This document shows positions 8,035 through 61,224 of a stretch of 64,000 bases of DNA, one piece after another (the first letter of the stretch is position 1; each line of letters opens with the position of its first letter). The translations under genes and the position numbers were made by a program. The DNA comes from Faecalibacterium langellae (GTDB lineage: Bacteria > Bacillota > Clostridia > Oscillospirales > Ruminococcaceae), in the NCBI RefSeq assembly GCF_002549775.1, contig NZ_NMTR01000017.1, positions 1-64,000 of the forward strand, written 5' to 3'. The notes beneath the pieces are model-generated. The model saw only the letters and a list, made by a program, of their open reading frames with translations, made no database searches and was not told the origin of the DNA.

Positions 8035-8811
8035 ATGCGTTTGATGAAAAGAATTCTGAGTGCAGCTGCTGTGCTAGCTCTGTCTGCTTCTCTTCTGGTT
8101 GGCTGCAGCAGCGGCACGGCGAGCTCTGTTCCCGTTTCTGCAAGTTCTGCCGCAGAAAGCACTGTTTCTTCCGTAGAAGAGACCGCCTCTTCTGCTGTGG
8201 ATGAAAACGAAGCTGCCGCTGCACAGTTGCTGAACGACCTAACGGGCAGCTATCAGGAACTGTGGCCGGTGATTCTGGCGGACGAATATAAGCAGACATG
8301 GCTGGATGATTGTACCGCTCTCGTGGGCGAGGACAATGCCGAAGCTGCTTTTGAGAAGCTGTCCTCTATGGTGACAGGTGATGTTTACGGCGAAGATGCA
8401 GTCAAAGCGTATGCCAACGGCGGCGGAGCCTATTTCTGCGGCTTTACCAATAGCCTTGCGATCTTGACCTTCGATGGTGAAACTTCTACCATTTCCGGCA
8501 CCGATAAGGACGGCAATGTGCTGTTCTCCCATACCTATCACTATATTGGCATGGAGCCTGTGCGTGGGCTGTATGAGTTTCAAAGCGATGATGCCGATTC
8601 CGGCGAGTTCACCTACTTCTTCCTTGCGCCGGACACCAGTGCGGAAACTTACCATATTGAGTTTCGCTATGGTTCGGATGCAGAAGCTCTGAGCCAGTAC
8701 GATACAGGCGAATATGCTTACTGGCTGGCCTCCGGCATTTCCACCGACTGTGACCAGACGATGATCGACAACTGCATTGAGCTGTTCTGCACCGAAAATC
8801 TGGCGGGTTAA
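8035..8811 (+). CDS. Secreted lipoprotein of unknown function
   Basis: This 258-residue protein has a lipoprotein signal (charged RLMKR, hydrophobic core, lipobox LLVGCSSG with Cys near residue 22) followed by a Ser/Ala/Glu-rich linker. The mature part (SYQELWPVILADEY, then GGGAYFCGFTNSLAILTFDG) looks like a compact beta-rich ligand-binding domain; I do not recognise the family. The start at 8035 is chosen because GGAGG lies 8-12 bases upstream and the signal peptide begins there. It is separated from the ABC genes by a terminator, so expression of those genes may be partly uncoupled. Confidence 0.75.
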   Translation: MRLMKRILSAAAVLALSASLLVGCSSGTASSVPVSASSAAESTVSSVEETASSAVDENEAAAAQLLNDLTGSYQELWPVILADEYKQTWLDDCTALVGEDNAEAAFEKLSSMVTGDVYGEDAVKAYANGGGAYFCGFTNSLAILTFDGETSTISGTDKDGNVLFSHTYHYIGMEPVRGLYEFQSDDADSGEFTYFFLAPDTSAETYHIEFRYGSDAEALSQYDTGEYAYWLASGISTDCDQTMIDNCIELFCTENLAG

Positions 8812-52329: not shown

Positions 52330-52358
52330 TTGCTTTTTCTAACCAAATATGCTATTAT
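52330..52358 (+). promoter_or_regulatory. Promoter of the defence block
   Basis: TTGCTT (52330-52335) and TATTAT (52353-52358) have 17-bp spacing. The leader of about 107 bases contains the hairpin at 52418-52441. Confidence 0.55.
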
Positions 52359-52417
52359 TATAAACAACGCTGTCGAGTGTTGGAATATGCCTTGGCAGTA
52401 TGGCTATAACAGACCGA

Positions 52418-52446
52418 ATGCTCTGCCGGAAGGCAGAGCATTTTTT
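52418..52446 (+). terminator. Terminator-like hairpin in the controller leader
   Basis: ATGCTCTGCC (52418-52427) pairs with GGCAGAGCAT (52432-52441) around a GGAA tetraloop and runs into six T residues. It lies 27 bp before the HTH gene and after its promoter, so it may act as an attenuator. Confidence 0.7.
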
Positions 52447-52472
52447 GTATATCGATAAGGAGAAGGTATTTT

Positions 52473-52682
52473 ATGGCAATCAGTTATAAAAGACTCTGGA
52501 AACTGCTCATCGACAAGGACATGAAAAAGAAGGACTTATGTGTAAGAGCTGGCATTAGCCCGGCTTCAGTTACTAAGATGGGAAGAAACGGTCACGTTAC
52601 CACGGAGATTCTTCTAAAGATTTGCATAGCACTGAATTGCCAAATCGAGGACATCATGGAAATTGTGCCAGATGAAAAATAA
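52473..52682 (+). CDS. Cro/C1-type HTH protein, probable controller
   Basis: This 69-residue protein is almost only a helix-turn-helix: YKRLWKLLIDKDMKKKDLCV, GISPASVTKMGRNGHVTTEI, and LLKICIALNCQIEDIMEIV. Proteins of this size beside methyltransferases are often C-proteins that delay nuclease expression until the DNA is methylated. It lies just before the methyltransferase on the same strand. The GGAGAAGG site is good. Confidence 0.75.
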   Translation: MAISYKRLWKLLIDKDMKKKDLCVRAGISPASVTKMGRNGHVTTEILLKICIALNCQIEDIMEIVPDEK

Positions 52683-52756
52683 ACGCATTATTGTAAATAG
52701 ATAAAATTCGAAAATAGAACAATCCTGTGTGGATTGAGGTAAGGCGAGTGGAAAAT

Positions 52757-54202
52757 ATGTTTCTGACAACAAAAGAGATTGCTCTAAAATGGGGTGTCTC
52801 TGCTACTTGGGTTACAGTGCTTTGTAAGAAAGGAAGAATTGAAGGGGTTATACGTAAAGGCAATAGATGGTATATTCCAGAAGATGCAAAGAAGCCCAAT
52901 GATAGAAGATCTTGTAAAAGTACACAGATTAAAGCCCGATTTAGATTTATCGACCTGTTTGCTGGAATTGGTGGTTTTCATCAAGCTATGAGATACCTCG
53001 GCGGCGAGTGTGTAATGGCAGCTGAGATTAACGAAGAATGTAAAAAAACATATCGACTTAATTACCATACCGAGGAGAAAGAACTACGTGGCGATGTGAC
53101 AAACATCCAACCCGAGACAATTGCGCCTTTTGATGTTTTGTGTGCGGGATTTCCTTGTCAACCTTTCAGCAAGGCTGGTGCACAAAAAGGTTTTAAAGAT
53201 AAGACTAGAGGAAACCTGTTCTATACGATTATGGATATCCTTGATGGACATCCTGAAGCAAAGTTTATTATTCTTGAAAATGTTCGTAATTTAGCTGACA
53301 AAACTGAAAACTGGGATATCATCACCTCAGAATTAATGCGGCGCAATTTTTATATCACGGAAGAACCTATTATACTCTCTCCCTCTGATTTTGGGATTCC
53401 TCAGATTCGAGAACGAGTATATATTCTTGGAATCCGAAAAGACATTAGAAATGAGAAGATTCTAAGCAATGGCTTCATTCATAAAAATGATCTTCAATTA
53501 GAAAAGCATTTCAAAAAATGTAAAATGGGGGATGCGTGGACAATTCTTGAAGATAATGTGGAGGATACGTATGTGATTCCTGAGGAACAGGAGCATATGA
53601 TTTTAGCTTGGGATGAGTTCCGAATTGAAACTGGAATAAAGGTGATTGGTTTTCCAATTTGGATTGATAGCTTTGGTGTTGGGATAGACGATGACAATGA
53701 AGTGTTTCGTGCACAAGGATATGATGATATGCCATCATGGAAGCAAAAATTTTTGAGGCATAACAGAAAGCTTTATCTTGATAATAGAGTTTTTATCGAT
53801 AAATGGATACGCAAATATGATATGCTCAACAAAATTAAACTCTACAAGAAATTTGAATGGAATTGTGGGACAGATGTTACAGATATTCGTGATTGCTTAA
53901 TCCAGATTCGGCAATCTGGTATTCGTGCAAAACGGCCAACATTTTATCCTTCGCTTGTCGCAATAGTCAACACTCCGATAATTTGGGATAAAAATAAAGG
54001 ACATTTTAGAAGGATTACTCCAAGAGAAGCTGCGAATCTGCAAAGTTTTCATGGTGGCTTTAAATTCCAAGGAACAGATGCAATCCAATATAAGCAACTT
54101 GGAAACTCTGTAAATGTACGAGTTTTAAAAATTTTGGGTGAAAGTTTATTTGCATTGGCTAATAATGGATGGGATGGTGAATTGGATGGCGAAACGCATT
54201 AA
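52757..54202 (+). CDS. DNA cytosine-5 methyltransferase with N-terminal HTH
   Basis: This 481-residue C5 methyltransferase has an N-terminal winged helix (FLTTKEIALKWGVSATWVTV), then motif I RFIDLFAGIGGFHQA (62-76), motif IV with the catalytic Cys134 in AGFPCQPFSKAG, motif VI ENVRNL (174), motif VIII IPQIRERVYILG, and motifs IX-X RRITPREAANLQSFH and QLGNSVNV. The target recognition region lies at about 260-390. A GTG at 52748 with better ribosome spacing is an alternative start. It overlaps the ATPase gene. It should protect host DNA. The region is AT-rich and foreign-looking. Confidence 0.9.
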   Translation: MFLTTKEIALKWGVSATWVTVLCKKGRIEGVIRKGNRWYIPEDAKKPNDRRSCKSTQIKARFRFIDLFAGIGGFHQAMRYLGGECVMAAEINEECKKTYRLNYHTEEKELRGDVTNIQPETIAPFDVLCAGFPCQPFSKAGAQKGFKDKTRGNLFYTIMDILDGHPEAKFIILENVRNLADKTENWDIITSELMRRNFYITEEPIILSPSDFGIPQIRERVYILGIRKDIRNEKILSNGFIHKNDLQLEKHFKKCKMGDAWTILEDNVEDTYVIPEEQEHMILAWDEFRIETGIKVIGFPIWIDSFGVGIDDDNEVFRAQGYDDMPSWKQKFLRHNRKLYLDNRVFIDKWIRKYDMLNKIKLYKKFEWNCGTDVTDIRDCLIQIRQSGIRAKRPTFYPSLVAIVNTPIIWDKNKGHFRRITPREAANLQSFHGGFKFQGTDAIQYKQLGNSVNVRVLKILGESLFALANNGWDGELDGETH

Positions 54203-55745
54203 TATTCGACCAACAACCAGTGTGTATGCTACCTACAAAAATATAAGATATGATCCATGGACTGCCATAGCGGAATTTGTAGACAATTCAACGCAAAGCT
54301 ATTATGACAATACTGAAAAACTTAATTCAACTAAATATTGGAACGGCCTTGCCGTTGACATTGAATACAAGAGAGACAAAGTAAGCGGCGATCACCTTAT
54401 CATAAAAGATAATGCGTATGGTATGGATTTTCGAGATTTTCAGCGGGCAATTATGTTGGATAGTCCGCCGAGAAAAAAATCTCGCAGTGAGTTTGGAATG
54501 GGACTAAAAACCGCCGCATGTTGGTTTGGAAAATGTTGGAGTGTTGAGTCTGTTGCACTGGGCTCTGGCGTGAAATATAAAACTACTGTAGATGTCGAAG
54601 CCTTGAGCAAATACAAAAACGAAGAAATCACCGTGGAAGAAATTCCGTGCAGCACAAAAGATCATGGCACAACTATCACTATTTGGAATTTGAATCGCAC
54701 ACTTTCTGGAACACAAATCGGAAAAACTAAAGACCAGTTGAGGGGAATGTATCGAACAGATTTGCGTTCCGGAAAAATCAAAATTCTATATAATGGTGTT
54801 GGACTGGTTTATGAGATGCCTAAAATACTCACCGAGATTTTACCCGACGGAAAAGAGAAAGTATGGGAAAAAGATATAGATATTTCTTTTGATTTTAATG
54901 GTGAAACCAAGCGTGTTTATGGGTTCATTGGTCTTTTGGATGAAGGTAGTACATCAGGTGCAGGTTTTACACTTATTCGATATGGTCGTGTTATCGTAGG
55001 TGGTTACGAAAATGGATATCGGCCTGAAGAAATATTTGAAAAGTCCAACTCCTATGTCTATCAAAGACTCTTTGGAGAACTAAATCTTGATGGATGGAGA
55101 GTGACGCAAACAAAGGATGCGTTTGATTTATATGGTGGTTTGGAAGATGTATTAATTGAAAAATTAAAAGCCGAATGTGAAGATTATAGAAAAAAGGCTA
55201 AGGAATATCGTAAACGCCCTAAGGCTTCGATTAACACAGGAATTGAAACCTTAGTAAATACTTTCTCCAATGCTGGTATTATTGATGATGTGGTGGTTAC
55301 ACCGATCCCTGAGGATGTTAATGTAGAGAGTTCGAAGACGGCTATTAGTCAGTCAAACATAAAGCCGACTACTAAAGTTGAACTTGTACCAGATCCTACA
55401 GACATTGAAGTTGAGGGCGATAGAGGAAAACGTATTGTCTTTTCCTGTAACGGTAAACAGTATATCTTTAATTTTATTTTGAAAAAAGATGATCCTGATA
55501 GTCGATGGCTCAATATTGCAATGAGTGGAGATGAGTATATTGTTGAATGGAATATTCGCCATATGTTTTTCAAGCCATATATTAACGATGAACATTTTTT
55601 AACCATCATGGAGCAATTTACATTTGCGCTTGCTTTATCTGAAATTGAGGCTATGCGTCTAAGTGTGGATGGAAAAATTGATCCTAGTAGCATCAGAATG
55701 AGGATGAATGAAACACTTAAAGCTGTAATTAAGGAGGGACACTAA
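54186..55745 (+). CDS. MORC/MutL-like GHKL ATPase
   Basis: This 519-residue protein has a Bergerat ATP-binding fold: IAEFVDNSTQSYYD (E30, D33-N34), DNAYGMDF (D75, G79), SRSEFGMGLKTAACWFG (G104, G106, K108) and HGTTITIWNL. An S5-like domain follows with RYGRVIVGGYENGY. Such ATPases beside C5 methyltransferase, Z1 and PD-(D/E)XK genes were described by Iyer, Abhiman and Aravind as restriction-type systems related to eukaryotic MORC proteins. The start at 54186 overlaps the methyltransferase end; the stop overlaps the next ATG (TAATG). Confidence 0.85.
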   Translation: MAKRINIRPTTSVYATYKNIRYDPWTAIAEFVDNSTQSYYDNTEKLNSTKYWNGLAVDIEYKRDKVSGDHLIIKDNAYGMDFRDFQRAIMLDSPPRKKSRSEFGMGLKTAACWFGKCWSVESVALGSGVKYKTTVDVEALSKYKNEEITVEEIPCSTKDHGTTITIWNLNRTLSGTQIGKTKDQLRGMYRTDLRSGKIKILYNGVGLVYEMPKILTEILPDGKEKVWEKDIDISFDFNGETKRVYGFIGLLDEGSTSGAGFTLIRYGRVIVGGYENGYRPEEIFEKSNSYVYQRLFGELNLDGWRVTQTKDAFDLYGGLEDVLIEKLKAECEDYRKKAKEYRKRPKASINTGIETLVNTFSNAGIIDDVVVTPIPEDVNVESSKTAISQSNIKPTTKVELVPDPTDIEVEGDRGKRIVFSCNGKQYIFNFILKKDDPDSRWLNIAMSGDEYIVEWNIRHMFFKPYINDEHFLTIMEQFTFALALSEIEAMRLSVDGKIDPSSIRMRMNETLKAVIKEGH

Positions 55746-57877
55746 TGAGCGATAGTATTGAAATGAATTACTATGAGCCGGAAACAACTACATGGACCGT
55801 TAATCTTGATGGACGATATATGTCTGCTGTACAGAACTATTTATTGGCGGACGGAATCCCTCTAGAAGGTGTTACGAGGATTGTTTCAAATGCAGCTCAA
55901 ACCCTTTCGTATTGTCCTTATCCGGAAGGAAACGGCACATGTCAAAAAACTGGCATTGTAATTGGAAAAGTTCAGAGTGGTAAAACTTCGAACTTCATTT
56001 CAATCACAGCACTAGCTTTTGATAATAATTATGATATTGTTATCGTCTTTGGCGGAACAAAGAAACCTCTTGTTAAGCAAAATCGAGACCGGATAAAAGA
56101 GTATTTTGAAGCAACCAAAGATGTCCTCGTTTTGGACACAACAGATTTTAAAGACCAGTTGACCGCACAAAAAATGCACCAATTCAATAAGATGAATAAG
56201 AAAGTTGTAGTGGTTGCACTCAAAAGTCCAACTCAGATTAACTACATTGCGGACAATATTTTTTCTGATCCTACTCTGGCAGAAAAACCGGTTCTAATTA
56301 TTGACGACGAAGGTGATGAAGCGTCTTTAAATACACTTGTGAAGAAAGGAAAAAAGAGTTCAACATATAAAGCAATCGAGAATTTAAAAGCTCGACTGAA
56401 TCGGCATTGCTTTTTGTCTATTACGGCAACGCCGCAAGCAAATTTGCTGATTGATACATTGGATGTCCTCTCGCCAGATTTTGGTGTACTTGTTGATCCG
56501 GGTAATGGATATTGTGGCCTCGATGTGTACCATAGTGATAATAAGTATACAAAGAAAATACCGGATAATGAAACCTCCCTGCTGGATGACGGCATTCCAC
56601 AATCGTTTATTGAAGCTATTTCGATGTTTTTTGTTGCCTGTGCAATATACAAAAATCGTGGTATGAAGCCAGGAGACAAATTATCTATGCTGGTTCATCC
56701 AAGCCAGTTGAAAGCAGATCACGAAAAAGTTTTTAATAAGGTTGAGGGTTTAATTAATGACTGGTGCCAAAAATCCGAAAATAAACGAGATATCGCTTAT
56801 GGTTCTTTGAAAAGAATACTAGTTGCGGCATACTGTGAATACGAAAAAGCGGGAGTTCAAGGTCTACCTTCTTTTGATTCGTTGGAAGATGATATTATTC
56901 AAGCGATGAATGTGTGTGGTAGGCATAAAGTAAACGGTGACAGTGTTCCCAAAGGTGCAGATGAGATATATGACTATAATATTTATGTTGGTGGTACCAT
57001 GTTGGGACGTGGCCTTACGCTCAAGGGACTCGCAATTACGTATATTATTCGAACTGCAAAAGGTGTATCCACAGTGGATACTGTTCAGCAGAGAGCCCGT
57101 TGGTTTGGATATAAGATGAAGTATCTGGACCTGTGTAGAATATTTGCTGTAGGAAAAATTATTAGAGAATTCCAAGAAATCCGAGACCATGAAGAAGATC
57201 TCTGGGAAACGGTACGAGCAGCCAAATGTCAAGGAACAAATTTTAAAAATATGGCTCGAATTTTTGCGCTCAGTGATGACTTGAAAATGACTCGTAGTTC
57301 GGTAGCCAAAACGGAAAATTATACCTTCAAGTTTTGGAATAAACAAAGAGAATTTCAAGACGTTCAAGAATATATTGATAGTAATAAGGCGATTTTGGCA
57401 ACAGTACGCGCGGAACAGAAAGACCAAATTAAAGTCGAACGATTTGGTGATGGCGCACCGTTTGTGATTGTTCCTAATATGGACTTTGACTATGTGAAAG
57501 AACGCATTTTTGATAAATTCTGCTTTGCTGCAGGAGAAAAATTCAATCAGTCTGTTATTAGCAAACTTGACATACTACTCAAACGTAAAAATTTGCAACC
57601 GAAAGTTGATATTATTTGGATGAGAGATGGAACTTTCTCAGAGCATTCTATTGACTGTGGACATATTCCTAATTATAGTGTTGGCCGCCGCCCAAAGAGT
57701 CTTGAAAAACCTCCAGTATATCTTGGTGATGATTACCAGTTTGTATCAGAAGATACTATGCAACTTCAAATTCACGAAATTCGAGATACGATTACGAATA
57801 TTGATAGTCCAACATTAGCATTTTATATTCCTAAAAGTGTAATTGAAAAATTGACAAATCTGGTAATTCAAGCATAA
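55745..57877 (+). CDS. Z1-domain helicase-like protein
   Basis: This 710-residue protein has a superfamily-2-like core: Walker A GKVQSGKTSNF (74-84), Walker B LIIDDEGDEAS (about 180-190), CFLSITATPQANLLID (motif III-like), then the Z1 domain with GGTMLGRGLTLKGLAITYI and TVQQRARWFGYK (arginine finger region). It is predicted to move along or remodel DNA. Its start overlaps the ATPase stop. Z1 proteins are a hallmark of the MORC-type restriction systems; I see no nuclease motif in this protein, so cleavage would come from the next gene. Confidence 0.85.
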   Translation: MSDSIEMNYYEPETTTWTVNLDGRYMSAVQNYLLADGIPLEGVTRIVSNAAQTLSYCPYPEGNGTCQKTGIVIGKVQSGKTSNFISITALAFDNNYDIVIVFGGTKKPLVKQNRDRIKEYFEATKDVLVLDTTDFKDQLTAQKMHQFNKMNKKVVVVALKSPTQINYIADNIFSDPTLAEKPVLIIDDEGDEASLNTLVKKGKKSSTYKAIENLKARLNRHCFLSITATPQANLLIDTLDVLSPDFGVLVDPGNGYCGLDVYHSDNKYTKKIPDNETSLLDDGIPQSFIEAISMFFVACAIYKNRGMKPGDKLSMLVHPSQLKADHEKVFNKVEGLINDWCQKSENKRDIAYGSLKRILVAAYCEYEKAGVQGLPSFDSLEDDIIQAMNVCGRHKVNGDSVPKGADEIYDYNIYVGGTMLGRGLTLKGLAITYIIRTAKGVSTVDTVQQRARWFGYKMKYLDLCRIFAVGKIIREFQEIRDHEEDLWETVRAAKCQGTNFKNMARIFALSDDLKMTRSSVAKTENYTFKFWNKQREFQDVQEYIDSNKAILATVRAEQKDQIKVERFGDGAPFVIVPNMDFDYVKERIFDKFCFAAGEKFNQSVISKLDILLKRKNLQPKVDIIWMRDGTFSEHSIDCGHIPNYSVGRRPKSLEKPPVYLGDDYQFVSEDTMQLQIHEIRDTITNIDSPTLAFYIPKSVIEKLTNLVIQA

Positions 57878-57889
57878 CGAGGTGCTAAT

Positions 57890-58855
57890 GTGGATATAGT
57901 TGAAACTTTCCAAAATCACTTTGGAAGCGGGAATGCAAGTACCCATGACTTTACACTTGTAGAGTACAGGCCGAACTTTTTTATTGGGATAGATAAGTTT
58001 GACCACGTTTGTGTTGTTGTTAAGTCTTCAGGTCTTCACAGATTTCCAATCAAATACAAAACTCAAAAAATAAGTATCGAGTGCAATATGAAAGTTTGTT
58101 ATGAACTGAATGGAAAACCGTATGATGACACGGTTCACATTATTCGGTGCTTATCTGAAGTTAAACGAGAAAAATATATATTTCTGGAACTTTCGATGGT
58201 TTTAATACAGGAGGGCGATAAATCTGAAGAAGCTATAATAGAAACGTTTAATATTTTGCGTACATTTTTCAATGATAAAAAAGAACTTTCGGATAATGAA
58301 TTGATTGGGCTATATGCCGAATTGTATACAATTTGCAGTTTTCATGAATCATTGGAAATTGAAAAATACTGGCAGTCGAGAGACCGTATGAAATTTGATT
58401 TCTCAATTTCAGAGAAAGTGAAACTTGAAGTTAAAGCAACAGTAAAGAACATACGGACACATCACTTCCGGCATGAGCAGTTAATGACAGAAGTATATGA
58501 TATATTTGTTTTGTCATATCTGTTGCGTTATGACGATGAGGGACTTTCATTGTTTGAACTACTCATGTCTTGTAAAAAAATCATGGCGAACGATTCAAGA
58601 AAATTGCTGCGTATTAACTATGTGTTGAAAAACGTAGAAGAAAGCCGCCTTAAGCACCTGCGATTCAACCGTGCTTATACAGAGGCAAATCGGCATATCT
58701 ATCGTGCAGCGGATATTCCCAAGTTCAGAGAGAACACGCCTCGTGGTGTGGCGAATGCCGAATATGATTGTGTCTTGGACAATGTGGAATTCATAGAGGA
58801 CGATTTATTTATCGATATTGCCAAATCAAATTCTGTGGGGGCTCAAAATGTTTAA
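57890..58855 (+). CDS. PD-(D/E)XK motif protein (DUF4420-like nuclease)
   Basis: This 321-residue protein starts at GTG 57890 behind GAGGTG. It shows a nuclease-like core: E144 in GLYAELYTICSF, D170 in RMKFDFSI, and E180-x-K182 in KLEVKATVKN, the spacing expected of PD-(D/E)XK restriction folds. It is the likely DNA-cutting subunit of the system. It overlaps the small following gene by 8 bases. The family usually travels with Z1 and MORC-type genes. Confidence 0.8.
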   Translation: MDIVETFQNHFGSGNASTHDFTLVEYRPNFFIGIDKFDHVCVVVKSSGLHRFPIKYKTQKISIECNMKVCYELNGKPYDDTVHIIRCLSEVKREKYIFLELSMVLIQEGDKSEEAIIETFNILRTFFNDKKELSDNELIGLYAELYTICSFHESLEIEKYWQSRDRMKFDFSISEKVKLEVKATVKNIRTHHFRHEQLMTEVYDIFVLSYLLRYDDEGLSLFELLMSCKKIMANDSRKLLRINYVLKNVEESRLKHLRFNRAYTEANRHIYRAADIPKFRENTPRGVANAEYDCVLDNVEFIEDDLFIDIAKSNSVGAQNV

Positions 58856-59150
58856 GACATATGATTTGTTTGACCATCGGAACATAAATGACCTTGTCCC
58901 AGAGATTATTTATTATTATTTGTTTCAAGGGCTTAGTCTTGCAGCTATTGAGTACAAACTATTTAGGACAAATGATTATCATGGCTGGCTAAGTAAAACC
59001 TTTCTGAATTATTACGGAATAGATACCGAAAAAGATAATAAAGGAATTTTTGCCGATAGAAGTGTCCCGGAAGTGGTAGAAGAACTTTATAAAAGTTCTA
59101 ATATTGCGCATGTGCGAGTTGCAAAATTACTGAAAGAAAAGTATTTGTAA
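58848..59150 (+). CDS. Unknown small protein at the end of the defence operon
   Basis: This 100-residue protein (KTYDLFDHRNINDLVPEIIY, LFQGLSLAAIEYKLFRTNDY) is mostly helical with a repeated Tyr/Leu pattern and ends RVAKLLKEKYL. I do not recognise it. The ATG lies inside the end of the nuclease gene (8-base overlap), so it is co-translated and probably functions with it, for example as a specificity or regulatory subunit. It shares the AT-rich composition of the block. Confidence 0.6.
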   Translation: MFKTYDLFDHRNINDLVPEIIYYYLFQGLSLAAIEYKLFRTNDYHGWLSKTFLNYYGIDTEKDNKGIFADRSVPEVVEELYKSSNIAHVRVAKLLKEKYL

Positions 59151-59269: not shown

Positions 59270-59893
59270 TTAAATTTTAGAGTTCAAATGCTCTACAAGT
59301 TTCCAAACCGTTGTCAACGGATTGCTCTGCCGTGAAATCGGTTCGAGAACCTGCTTCTGAACTTGGTCTGCACGAGCTTTCGCTCTCTGAATCGCAGTTG
59401 CCTGCAAAGGCTTCAAAACGTCAAAGTAATCCTTGTTTTTCTCATACTCAGGAAGTCTGCCCGGCTGTTTCAGCAATCGAATTAATGCTTGGCAATCTTC
59501 AACCTCTGTCTGCTGATTTACAAAATGTAGTAGGAACCACAGCTCAAAGGATGGATTGGAGTAGGCCAAATGATAGCCTTCCTTTTGAGCGGACTGTTTG
59601 GCGCGCAGAAGTACCTCGTTAGAATTATCGTCACGGTCAAAGACGCACCAGATGGAATCGCCTTCATCGGGATAGTAGGGATTGTTGCCCATAGTGGCTT
59701 TGGCTTTCTGCACAAGCCTGTCGGCAGATTTATACTGAGAAGAAATCGGGATGATGTCGATGTTACAGCCCCGACTTCGGAAATGCTTGAAATACCGAAT
59801 CTCGGTTTCACTGCCTTCGCAGATGAGGTATACGACAGGATTTCGCTTTCTGGTTCGGGCGGGTTTGCGGCTGAGTTCTTTTATTCTGCCCAT
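59270..59893 (-). CDS. RloB-like TOPRIM-type protein
   Basis: This 207-residue protein has a Lys/Arg-rich N terminus, then VVYLICEGSETEIRYFKHF (E26 of a TOPRIM-like site), IWCVFDRDDN (D86-x-D88) and SNPSFELWFLLHF. These are the acidic positions of RloB/OLD-type nuclease domains. The ATG overlaps the end of the ATPase gene by 13 bases, so the two make one unit. Such pairs act in phage defence, by host-damaging cleavage in some systems (AbiL- and PARIS-like); the exact type is uncertain. Confidence 0.8.
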   Translation of the reverse strand: MGRIKELSRKPARTRKRNPVVYLICEGSETEIRYFKHFRSRGCNIDIIPISSQYKSADRLVQKAKATMGNNPYYPDEGDSIWCVFDRDDNSNEVLLRAKQSAQKEGYHLAYSNPSFELWFLLHFVNQQTEVEDCQALIRLLKQPGRLPEYEKNKDYFDVLKPLQATAIQRAKARADQVQKQVLEPISRQSNPLTTVWKLVEHLNSKI

Positions 59894-61065
59894 ACTGCAT
59901 TCCCTCCAATGAATGGGATCGCCCCATACCGGCCTTGCAGATAGCCTTTGGCGATGTTCTCACCTTTCCGGGGAGAAAACTCGGTCAGGGCATAAATATC
60001 GGTCTGCATGGTCTTTTCGTTCTTCTCTGCAAACCAGATCTGATCGCGCCGCAGCAACGTCAGGTCGAGAAGTCCGGTATCGTGTGTTGTAAAGATGAGT
60101 TGTGCATGGTTTGTATTGATAGCGTCATCCTGCACCATCTCGATCAGATGCCTTGTCAGCAGCGGGTGCATACTGGATTCTATCTCGTCTACTACCAAAA
60201 CAGAGCCGGATTCCAAAGCCGCAAGCCACATACCGATGCGAGAGAAGAAACGCTGTGTCCCAACAGATTCCTGACCCAACGGGAGCCAGAACCCCTCAGA
60301 AGCGCCATCTTCGGCATCGAGAATGTGCAGTGCGGAGATGATAGGCTCTTCCTTGGAGCCTGTAATGCGGATGTCCTTGATACCGAGGTCTGCATACAGC
60401 ATTTCATGCAGGATACGGCTCTTTTCAGAGCCGCCCTGCCGGATGGCAGACAATGTAGCATCCAGCCGCATTTCGGTTCCCATAAAGCCTGTCAGTTTTT
60501 CAAAGAACCACAGATACGCCTTTTCAGTCTGGGGGCAGTTCCACTCGTTGGAGCTGGACAGGTAAAGCCGGTTTTCTGCGGTGCGTCCGGCAAGGGTAAG
60601 CTGTTCCTGAACATTCTCGCGGAACTGATAACCATTGCCTTCTCTGGAAAAAACCAGAGCCTCCCGGCCGTTGGGCCAGTGATAGAGATATTCGGTCAGG
60701 ACTTTGGACTTGTCAAACGAGAACCCATAGGCATACTTGATGCCGCCATAAAAATAGATGGCTTCAAAGCTGGTCGGCTGTGTAGGCTGGTCGGTGAAAG
60801 CAAACGGTTCTTGCGGAAGGAACTCACCTTTCAGCAACTTGGCATACCGCCCGCAGACCATCTCGCGCATGAGCAGGAGGGCATGGAGAACATTGCTCTT
60901 TCCAGCTGCATTTGCGCCGTACAGTGCAAGCACTGGCACAAGCTGTTTCTTCTCGTCCGGCGAAATCAGGCAGTCGGACAGACTTTTATCTGTGGATGCC
61001 TTCATGCTAATGACGGCGGTATCCCTGATGGAACGGTGGTTCGTGACAGAAAATTGAAGCAGCAT
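59881..61065 (-). CDS. AAA/ABC-type ATPase of a defence pair
   Basis: This 394-residue AAA_15/AAA_21-type ATPase starts LLQFSVTNHRSIRDTAVIS. Walker A is LYGANAAGKSNVLH (50-57), the ABC-like dimer region is near GQESVGTQRFFS, Walker B is SVLVVDEIESSMHP, and the following LIFTTHDTGLLD carries the switch histidine. It resembles OLD/RloA/AriA sensors that hold a TOPRIM partner until a phage signal appears. The start at 61065 has GGGAGG upstream. It heads a minus-strand unit with RloB. Confidence 0.85.
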   Translation of the reverse strand: MLLQFSVTNHRSIRDTAVISMKASTDKSLSDCLISPDEKKQLVPVLALYGANAAGKSNVLHALLLMREMVCGRYAKLLKGEFLPQEPFAFTDQPTQPTSFEAIYFYGGIKYAYGFSFDKSKVLTEYLYHWPNGREALVFSREGNGYQFRENVQEQLTLAGRTAENRLYLSSSNEWNCPQTEKAYLWFFEKLTGFMGTEMRLDATLSAIRQGGSEKSRILHEMLYADLGIKDIRITGSKEEPIISALHILDAEDGASEGFWLPLGQESVGTQRFFSRIGMWLAALESGSVLVVDEIESSMHPLLTRHLIEMVQDDAINTNHAQLIFTTHDTGLLDLTLLRRDQIWFAEKNEKTMQTDIYALTEFSPRKGENIAKGYLQGRYGAIPFIGGNAVWAE

Positions 61066-61224
61066 CGCAAAACCTCCCAAGTGTTTTCTGGGTTCAGTAT
61101 ACTCCATTCTTGGCAGAAAATCAAATTTTAATATTGATATTTGCGGAAAATATTCAAAATCAAGACATAAAATCGTGTCTAGGCGTTTTTGATGCTGAAA
61201 CAGAAACATGAAAAACAGTTGAAA

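Follow-up and report, generated by a model that had tools for sequence, protein, structure and literature searches.

The 64,000-nt stretch of DNA from the gut bacterium Faecalibacterium langellae analysed here, referred to throughout as the window, carries at 52473-59150 a six-gene operon that we consider likely to encode a mobile, ATP-dependent restriction-modification (R-M) system of the MORC-Z1 kind, probably directed against viruses, a reading that draws on sequence comparison. Its core consists of a cytosine methyltransferase (MTase), a GHKL ATPase of the MORC family, a Z1-domain ATPase and a putative nuclease of the DUF4420 family, preceded by a helix-turn-helix (HTH) regulator and followed by a 100-residue protein, ORF6. 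Comparison of the window's operon (W) with other loci and genomes (designated by L and G codes, respectively) indicates that it is a mosaic, in which the MTase and the GHKL-Z1-DUF4420 block are exchanged separately, a new feature of operons of this kind.

Gene content and layout of the operon

The features of the operon, with the method or the profile match (E-value) that identifies each of them, are as follows.

52330-52358, plus strand: promoter-like element TTGCTT-17 nt-TATTAT, read from the sequence
52361-52449, plus strand: two-hairpin leader RNA ending in an intrinsic terminator, from folding and conservation in four loci
52473-52682, plus strand: HTH regulator of Cro/C1 type, controller-like, 69 residues (HTH_26, PF13443, 2.8e-20)
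52727-54202, plus strand: C5-cytosine DNA MTase with N-terminal HTH_17 (PF00145, 6.1e-66; PF12728, 8.6e-08)
54186-55745, plus strand: MORC-family GHKL-S5 ATPase (HATPase_c_3, PF13589, 1.1e-17)
55745-57877, plus strand: superfamily 2 DEAD-like ATPase with a Z1 domain, 710 residues (PF10593, 3.6e-41; ResIII, PF04851, 2e-06)
57890-58855, plus strand: putative PD-(D/E)XK nuclease, DUF4420, 321 residues (PF14390, 1.2e-19)
58848-59150, plus strand: ORF6, no known family, 100 residues, conserved in L011, L012 and L042

The original prediction, made from the letters of the window, had described a six-gene, AT-rich block of restriction type, and the description holds: all six open reading frames (ORFs) are present at the given place on the plus strand and none is broken, the genes from the MTase onward overlap or nearly touch, and the tract from 52.0 to 59.5 kb has a GC content of 34-39% vs 43-54% in the immediate flanks (1-kb windows). 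The MTase and GHKL genes overlap by 17 nt if the GHKL protein starts at 54186, the GHKL and Z1 genes overlap by 1 nt, the Z1 and DUF4420 genes are separated by 12 nt, and the overlap of the DUF4420 and ORF6 genes, with the ORF6 start at 58848, amounts to 8 nt. Pfam found a domain in five of the six proteins, in keeping with the predicted identities, and none in ORF6. Profile searches and a neighbourhood comparison had been proposed as checks; the former returned the PF10593, PF14390, PF13589 and PF00145 matches listed above, and the latter revealed a GHKL gene with Z1 next downstream in 18 loci (counting the window), 16 of which have DUF4420 directly after it.

The GHKL protein most likely starts at ATG 54186 (MAK..., as in its relatives), the ORF itself opening at GTG 54138. 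Its ATP-binding motifs are present (E46..D49-N50, DNAxGM, EFGMGLK, K326), and GFTLIRYGRVI, from residue 276 as numbered from 54138, fits the MORC motif of the S5 domain, GhXhhpXXRhl. This motif occurs in all 19 window-type GHKL proteins (those of the 18 GHKL-Z1 loci and of L033) and also in GHKL proteins resembling those of the MZA system (mzaABCDE), namely in L014, L015, L016, L027 and L062; it was not found in the GHKL proteins of L043, L060, L061 and L063. On our own GHKL profile, the window-type proteins score 532-778 bits and the MZA-like ones, where scored, 28-54. Since both kinds carry the MORC motif, they are separated by profile score and gene content, and the MORC family as defined by this motif spans both kinds of Z1 operon. 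Assignment of the window protein to paraMORC2 was ruled out, because the MORC motif is present and there is no histidine at ~250-345, where an ExxxH in the C-terminal part of the S5 domain would be expected; the label paraMORC was likewise rejected for the MZA-like GHKL proteins, five of which match the MORC motif. Among 50,697 phage records no GHKL match was found at 1e-5.

The Z1 protein (PADLOC Helicase_II, 187.7 bits) carries the motifs GKVQSGKT, IIDDEGDE, SITATPQA and DTVQQRARWFG, the last of which fits the DThhQXuRhFG pattern of the third-type helicase, described below, with Q at one of the two 'h' positions. In the DUF4420 protein E144, D170 and E180-x-K182 are present, E144, D170 and K182 being invariant across 11 sequences, and its AlphaFold2 model is good (pLDDT 87). 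Searches by sequence for solved relatives found none for GHKL at 0.01, for Z1 at 0.1 or for DUF4420 at 1. Among the operon proteins, Pfam recognised no PLD domain at E<=0.01 and no AIPR domain.

The effector block is exchanged as a unit

The 18 loci with adjacent GHKL and Z1 genes comprise the window, L010, L011, L012, L042 (in G1098), L019 (in G086), L020 (a Hymenobacter plasmid), L021 (a Rathayibacter plasmid), L098 (in G382) and nine of 11 viral contigs, the other two stopping at or within the GHKL gene. As these loci were collected by searching for the genes in question, the counts express cohesion and not unbiased rates. In 15 of the 18 loci, GHKL is preceded on its own strand by a full-length MTase gene. 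The three exceptions are L030, whose MTase gene lies downstream and on the opposite strand, L031, which begins at GHKL, and L037, which holds a 132-residue piece only.

Pairwise identities (%), given for the MTase as catalytic part/target recognition domain (TRD) and for the effector block as GHKL/Z1/DUF4420, follow two opposed patterns:

Window and L042: MTase 90/81; effector block 45/42/31; ORF6 85
Window and L012: MTase 56/30; effector block 81/74/63; ORF6 85
L012 and L042: MTase 54/32; effector block 46/42/31; ORF6 88
L029 and L034: MTase 98/96; effector block 58/45/36
L034 and L036: MTase 70/53; effector block 84/82/63

The pairs were limited to those with W, L011, L012, L042 or L019 as first member, or with a GHKL identity above 45%. 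The DUF4420 gene of L010 is cut near the contig end, its percentages being taken from 93 residues, and L028, in which Z1 is split in two frames, was excluded from the Z1 comparisons. In approximately unbiased (AU) tests of clades named after the identities had been seen, with L033, L038, L098 and L101 outside the trees, the MTase data rejected {W,L010,L011,L012} (p 0.002) and {L034,L035,L036} (p 1e-4), and the GHKL and Z1 data rejected {W,L010,L011,L042} and {L029,L034} (p 4e-10 to 6e-93). Moreover, DNA identity between the window and L042 drops from 78% to ~54% near 54300, and that between L029 and L034 from 84% to 40% near 8100, in both cases around GHKL codon 38, so that two independent pairs have a sharp breakpoint in common, in the conserved N-box region. 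For L029/L034, BLAST extents had put the breakpoint where the GHKL ATPase module ends, a position that windowed identity corrected to the one given here. Taken together, the identities, the AU tests and the breakpoints argue that GHKL, Z1 and DUF4420 move as a unit, separately from the MTase and ORF6. Hence, these three proteins, travelling as one block, most likely form the effector complex.

For signs that the effector proteins follow the MTase type, alignment columns were counted in which W, L010, L011 and L042 agree and L012 differs (with the MTase type) and in which L012 and L042 agree against the W group (against it). The MTase itself gave 160/0, GHKL 3/3, Z1 16/8 and DUF4420, counted without L010, 7/3; the columns of the effector proteins were scattered and, when summed, slightly favour tracking (26 vs 14). 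An MTase-tracking specificity region was seen in none of GHKL, Z1 and DUF4420, the clustering being judged by eye. A shared target would likewise give no tracking, and thus the result is also compatible with a common site read by the effector block.

A shared signature in the target recognition domain of the MTase

The window MTase, for which PADLOC gives DruM2 as best profile (298 bits) and whose true start may be ATG 52757, has intact motifs (FAGIGG, GFPCQPFS, ENV, QIRER) and bears the TRD signature RQSGIRAK. The core of this signature, R-x-S-G-[IV]-R-x-K, is a new feature of the family. It was found in 21 of the 56 distinct full-length C5 MTases of the fetched loci, a count made without requiring the strict PCQ pattern (the strict filter gave 51) and with five short or partial enzymes set aside, i.e., L099 (two pieces, one of which carries the signature), L080, the second ORF of L081, and L037. 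All 17 MTases adjoining a window-type GHKL carry the core vs 4 of the 39 others, and it is retained in L012. The four are L038, with a GHKL fragment beside it, L101, L100 and L078, the last being fused to MTaX1, with no Z1, and identical to the gene in L097. Among the 35 enzymes that do not carry it are 12 encoded at most 9 kb from an MZA, CglI or other-type Z1 gene, L041, which adjoins the GHKL of G957, and the HpaII-linked enzyme L103 (by annotation). On a profile built from signature-bearing members, the signature MTases score at least 312 bits and the others at most 266; the signature thus coincides with an MTase subfamily and marks kinship, possibly also specificity.

At L097:6995-9316 the MTaX1-fused C5 MTase carries the signature, and no Z1 or GHKL was recognised nearby. 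An orphan C5 MTase at L100:5995-7206 (BK063679.1, Methanobacteriales virus vir323), 43.5% identical to the window MTase, has kept the signature as well and is possibly an anti-restriction MTase. At L101:5552-11216, in a faecal phage scaffold (MT835579.1), a signature MTase is followed by Z1 and by two genes with no Pfam match; as judged from the genes recognised there, this is a relative devoid of GHKL. A 45-residue fragment resembling the N-terminus of a C5 MTase, right after DUF4420 at L019:9119-9256, is perhaps what remains of an MTase that was exchanged or duplicated.

A conserved small protein closes the operon

ORF6 closes the operon in four loci (the window, L011, L012 and L042), the contig of L010 stopping before its position. 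The four copies are 81-88% identical to one another, that of the window being 81-85% identical to the other three, and the start at 58848 (MFKTYDL...) is the start of all three relatives. Non-synonymous divergence (pN) is 0.07-0.11 with synonymous divergence (pS) saturated, and ORF6 is therefore a real protein on which purifying selection acts strongly. Towards the 3' end, this gene alone (58847-59150) is homologous at the DNA level between the window and L042. ORF6 is thus constant across operons in which other parts have been swapped, which is a further new feature, and it would be a small subunit, accessory or adaptor, able to serve more than one effector block.

Membership of a known family was rejected, the matches being at chance level (at best E 0.02 in Pfam and E 0.2 in PHROG, with a single one of the four members matching in each case), and the best match by sequence in the PDB had E 0.24. 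Outside the operon, the window's own copy was the only one among 398 genomes of the phylum, a sample in which G1098 is apparently not included, and no relative was confirmed among 23 candidate stretches of IMG/VR.

A structured leader lies upstream of the regulator

The HTH regulator has homologues at the same position in L010, L011 and L012. Upstream of it the window shares with L010, L011 and L042 a leader of ~85 nt, consisting of a 5' hairpin and a terminator hairpin of 11-12 bp; in the window the terminator stem lies at 52416-52443, ~24-30 nt upstream of the HTH start codon. In all four loci folding gave z between -5.0 and -5.8, a value to which the terminator stem contributes much, and the RNAalifold consensus has 23 pairs, four of them with a double change that occurs each time in one sequence. 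In L010 the 5' hairpin belongs to the centroid structure and is absent from the minimum free energy structure. A covariance model of the leader (R1) found one strong copy in the window's own genome (E 4.5e-18), the remaining matches having E > 0.01; across 18 sources it found the four leaders, a weak match in L028 (68-145, E 8e-5), antisense terminator matches and weaker matches in the window (E at least 0.04). It had no match at E<=1 in L012, which carries the other MTase type. Identity with a known Rfam RNA was ruled out, since nothing reaches a gathering score.

The promoter-like element has similar counterparts in L010, L011 and L042, though not in L012; it scores too low to have been reported by the consensus scan. 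The functional unit probably extends upstream to ~52330, taking in the promoter-like element and the leader. We regard the conserved, structured leader with its terminator upstream of the regulator as a new feature of the operon; from four sequences only, it may be an attenuator or a small RNA. Together with the HTH protein, it would probably keep expression low until the host DNA is methylated.

The operon occupies a variable chromosomal slot

The cassette is bounded by homologous flanks at ~52.09 and ~59.27 kb, and both flanks were found in order around other DNA in four of 30 congeners (G005, G1164, G1174 and G003); G010 and G012 hold flank pieces too, in a different layout. All four inserts (L060, L061, L062 and L063) encode a GHKL protein, and three of them a C5 or N6 MTase. 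The slot of G005 holds GHKL and three unknowns (4/4 larger ORFs scanned), that of G1164 a C5 MTase, GHKL, ResIII and an N6/N4 MTase (6/6), that of G1174 an MZA-like set, GHKL-Z1-DUF4420-AIPR-C5 MTase-Vsr (6 of ~9), and that of G003 GHKL, an Eco57I-type MTase and helicases (5 of ~10). Histidine kinase (HK)-like GHKL proteins next to R-M genes are described in PMC8011034. The label 'restriction-type' in the original prediction is thus supported by homology, by intact catalytic motifs and by a slot that holds other MTase, helicase and GHKL cassettes in congeners. The right anchor of the slot, conserved as such in several congeners, is a pair of genes for an RloB-like protein and an AAA_21 ATPase on the minus strand (window 59270-61209; AbiLii/AbiLi-like according to PADLOC).

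The closest operons, found in one scan of genome contigs, are those of three Clostridia assemblies (L010-L012), of which two come from goat caecum. The window DUF4420 protein had no match in 20 relatives (including 12 congeners), and a search of 394 genomes of the order at E<=1e-20 gave a GHKL match in three, i.e., the window's own genome, G1098 (L042) and G957, the GHKL of which has no MORC motif and no Z1 recognised within 19 kb. Given these two results, the window operon looks like a mobile cassette; relatives occur on viral contigs and plasmids. Within the class, seven of 391 genomes have a DUF4420 score above the cut-off. Two of them, the window's own and G086, belong to the window type, three (G339, G136 and G199) combine a long Z1 with an adjoining MZA-like GHKL, and in the remaining two, G046 and G337, a long Z1 lies nearby. 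The genome of G136 matches MzaB, C, D and E, each under the cut-off.

Interpretation

If the operon is an R-M system, its parts suggest how it might work. The MTase would mark host sites with 5-methylcytosine (5mC), and on unmarked incoming DNA the Z1 ATPase, the DUF4420 nuclease and the MORC ATPase would act as one complex, in which ATP hydrolysis by Z1 would move or remodel DNA, as proposed for CglI, and the MORC GHKL-S5 dimer, following the proposal of Iyer et al., would clamp or loop the DNA by closing on it; the action of both would license DUF4420 to cut. Such licensing of the nuclease by the ATPase and Z1, with methylation marking self, had been put forward in the original prediction and is plausible, lying near the proposals made by Iyer et al. 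and for CglI.

Several observations weigh against this reading. A Foldseek search of the PDB with the DUF4420 model gave no significant match, and so the nuclease assignment draws on the Pfam family and the motif. In L020 a hypothetical gene and an HNH gene, in this order, follow Z1, and in L098 (1-756, G382) an AAA_21/SMC-like gene takes the place of DUF4420, which shows that the nuclease partner is not constant. Residues 241-300, part of the variable region of the MTase, differ even where the signature is kept; given this, conservation of the motif falls short of proving a shared recognition sequence. ORF6 is known from four loci only, all in Clostridia genomes, its model is helical but weak (pLDDT 66), and a fold search with it gave no match. 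The system is rare in the genome samples searched, and the literature search found no experiment on it or on a close relative.

Within the R-M reading, the question is which component reads the DNA. The MTase can be replaced without a change of the block, so compatibility would come either from a target shared by the family or from recognition supplied by the MTase, and the conserved TRD signature favours the former. In an orthodox R-M system, the nuclease or Z1 would have a TRD of its own and the L012-type MTase would read the window-type site, which would account for harmless exchange of the MTase and agrees with the core R-x-S-G-[IV]-R-x-K being kept in L012 and other family MTases; that no GHKL, Z1 or DUF4420 region visibly tracks the MTase type (3/3, 16/8 and 7/3, by eye) speaks on the other side, and we give this version a little less than an even chance. 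More tentatively, the operons may form a family of interchangeable parts, in which the block has no recognition of its own, the target is set by the exchanged MTase or by a family-fixed TRD core, ORF6 is the adaptor and the leader the switch. If this were true, one mode of target recognition would be fixed in at least three phyla (Bacillota, Actinomycetota and Bacteroidota) despite divergence of the cutting machinery to ~30% identity or less, and the signature-bearing orphan MTases of phages (L100) would be the matching antidotes.

We regard it as unlikely that the operon is instead an abortive infection system similar to MZA, in which GHKL-Z1-DUF4420 senses infection and harms the cell or its DNA and the MTase merely shields the host genome. 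MZA has GHKL, Z1 and PD-(D/E)XK parts too, the GHKL proteins of MZA-like sets carry the MORC motif, and an MZA-like set with AIPR sits in the same slot in G1174; however, there is no AIPR domain in the window operon, the NCBIfam cut-offs for Mza proteins are far out of reach, and the C5 MTase gene precedes GHKL, in the same orientation, in 15 of the 18 loci, as in an ordinary R-M system. Still less probable is a modification-dependent (type IV-like) defence that attacks foreign-modified phage DNA with an incidental MTase: a GmrSD_N (DUF262) gene does lie beside a related MTase-Z1-DUF4420 set in L099, but a single signature-marked MTase subfamily accompanying window-type GHKL in 17 of 17 cases would be unexpected if the MTase were incidental. 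Least probable of all is a housekeeping or regulatory role, i.e., chromosome organisation or gene control by MORC and methylation, for although eukaryotic MORC proteins function in silencing and DNA compaction according to abstracts, the distribution is patchy (no DUF4420 match in 20 relatives; GHKL in 3/394, its own included and one of another type) and the operon is an AT-rich cassette in a variable slot with relatives on viral contigs and plasmids.

MORC proteins are important in eukaryotic silencing and are proposed to descend from such bacterial operons (Iyer et al., PMC2292703), yet no experimentally tested MORC-Z1 restriction system was found in the literature searched. The natural swaps of MTase against block, and of block against MTase, make an old question, that of the DNA-reading subunit and the role of the MORC ATPase, testable by chimeric operons, and the constant 100-residue partner and the shared recognition signature offer concrete handles.

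Comparison with known systems

By its motifs and gene content, the window core is a third-type MORC operon, related to MZA and distinct from it. This type was predicted computationally in 2008 by Iyer, Abhiman and Aravind (PMC2292703), who also propose DNA looping by MORC and a role for the helicase, and the link to their work made in the original prediction is confirmed by the motifs. Common to both are a GHKL-S5 protein with GhXhhpXXRhl, a helicase with DThhQXuRhFG, a protein with the E-D-ExK motif and, frequently, a cytosine methylase; as for the restriction endonuclease fold given for the third protein, the motif fits the window DUF4420, the fold itself having no Foldseek confirmation. The sections of PMC2292703 that were compared make no mention of ORF6 or a leader RNA, nor of a TRD signature or of block exchange.

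With MZA the window operon shares a GHKL ATPase, Z1 and a DUF4420-type PD-(D/E)XK protein within one operon. Membership was rejected on the NCBIfam cut-offs (NF041932-NF041935) and the absence of AIPR: against cut-offs of 850 for MzaB and 1500 for MzaC, GHKL and Z1 of the window reach 18.2 and 135.5 bits, respectively, there is no match to MzaD, and the Z1 protein has 710 residues vs 892-943 in the MZA-like L014-L016, L027 and L062. The experimental study of MZA is reportedly that of Gao et al. 2020.

CglI and NgoAVII likewise combine a 5mC MTase, a DEAD-Z1 ATPase and a nuclease, and their cleavage occurs only with nucleotide hydrolysis (PMC4267653, PMC5737866); ATP-dependent cutting may be presumed for the window system as well. 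They differ in their PLD-B3 nuclease, their three genes and the lack of GHKL (PMC4267653, PMC5737866), the nuclease candidate of the window being DUF4420 and not a PLD-family protein. The MTase beside Z1 in the Neisseria record L074 does not carry the TRD signature. Gene embeddings defined Z1/PD-(D/E)XK/C5-MTase types I and II, likened to mzaABCDE (PMC9523054), which have the Z1, PD-(D/E)XK and cytosine MTase core in common with the window and, in type II, an associated MORC protein; the Z1 of these types has 925 residues, type II has AIPR, and as far as the text describes them neither fits an operon with a short Z1 and ORF6. An island with Z1, an EcoRII-like gene, DUF4420 and a C5 MTase is described in PMC5379612. 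The search by title and abstract, which left most subscription papers outside, found one paper naming DUF4420 and no biochemistry of a MORC-Z1 operon.

A functional precedent for pairing the two activities is offered by VcSduA, a GHKL-PD-(D/E)XK protein, both activities of which are reported to be required for phage defence (PMC12137116). Coupling of a GHKL ATPase with a PD-(D/E)XK nuclease is common to VcSduA and the window operon; VcSduA is a single fused protein with a DUF4263 nuclease, however, and the portion of PMC12137116 that describes it names no Z1 or MTase partner. The kind of operon is already known as a prediction, and what the window and its relatives add is ORF6, the block exchange, the TRD signature and the leader RNA.

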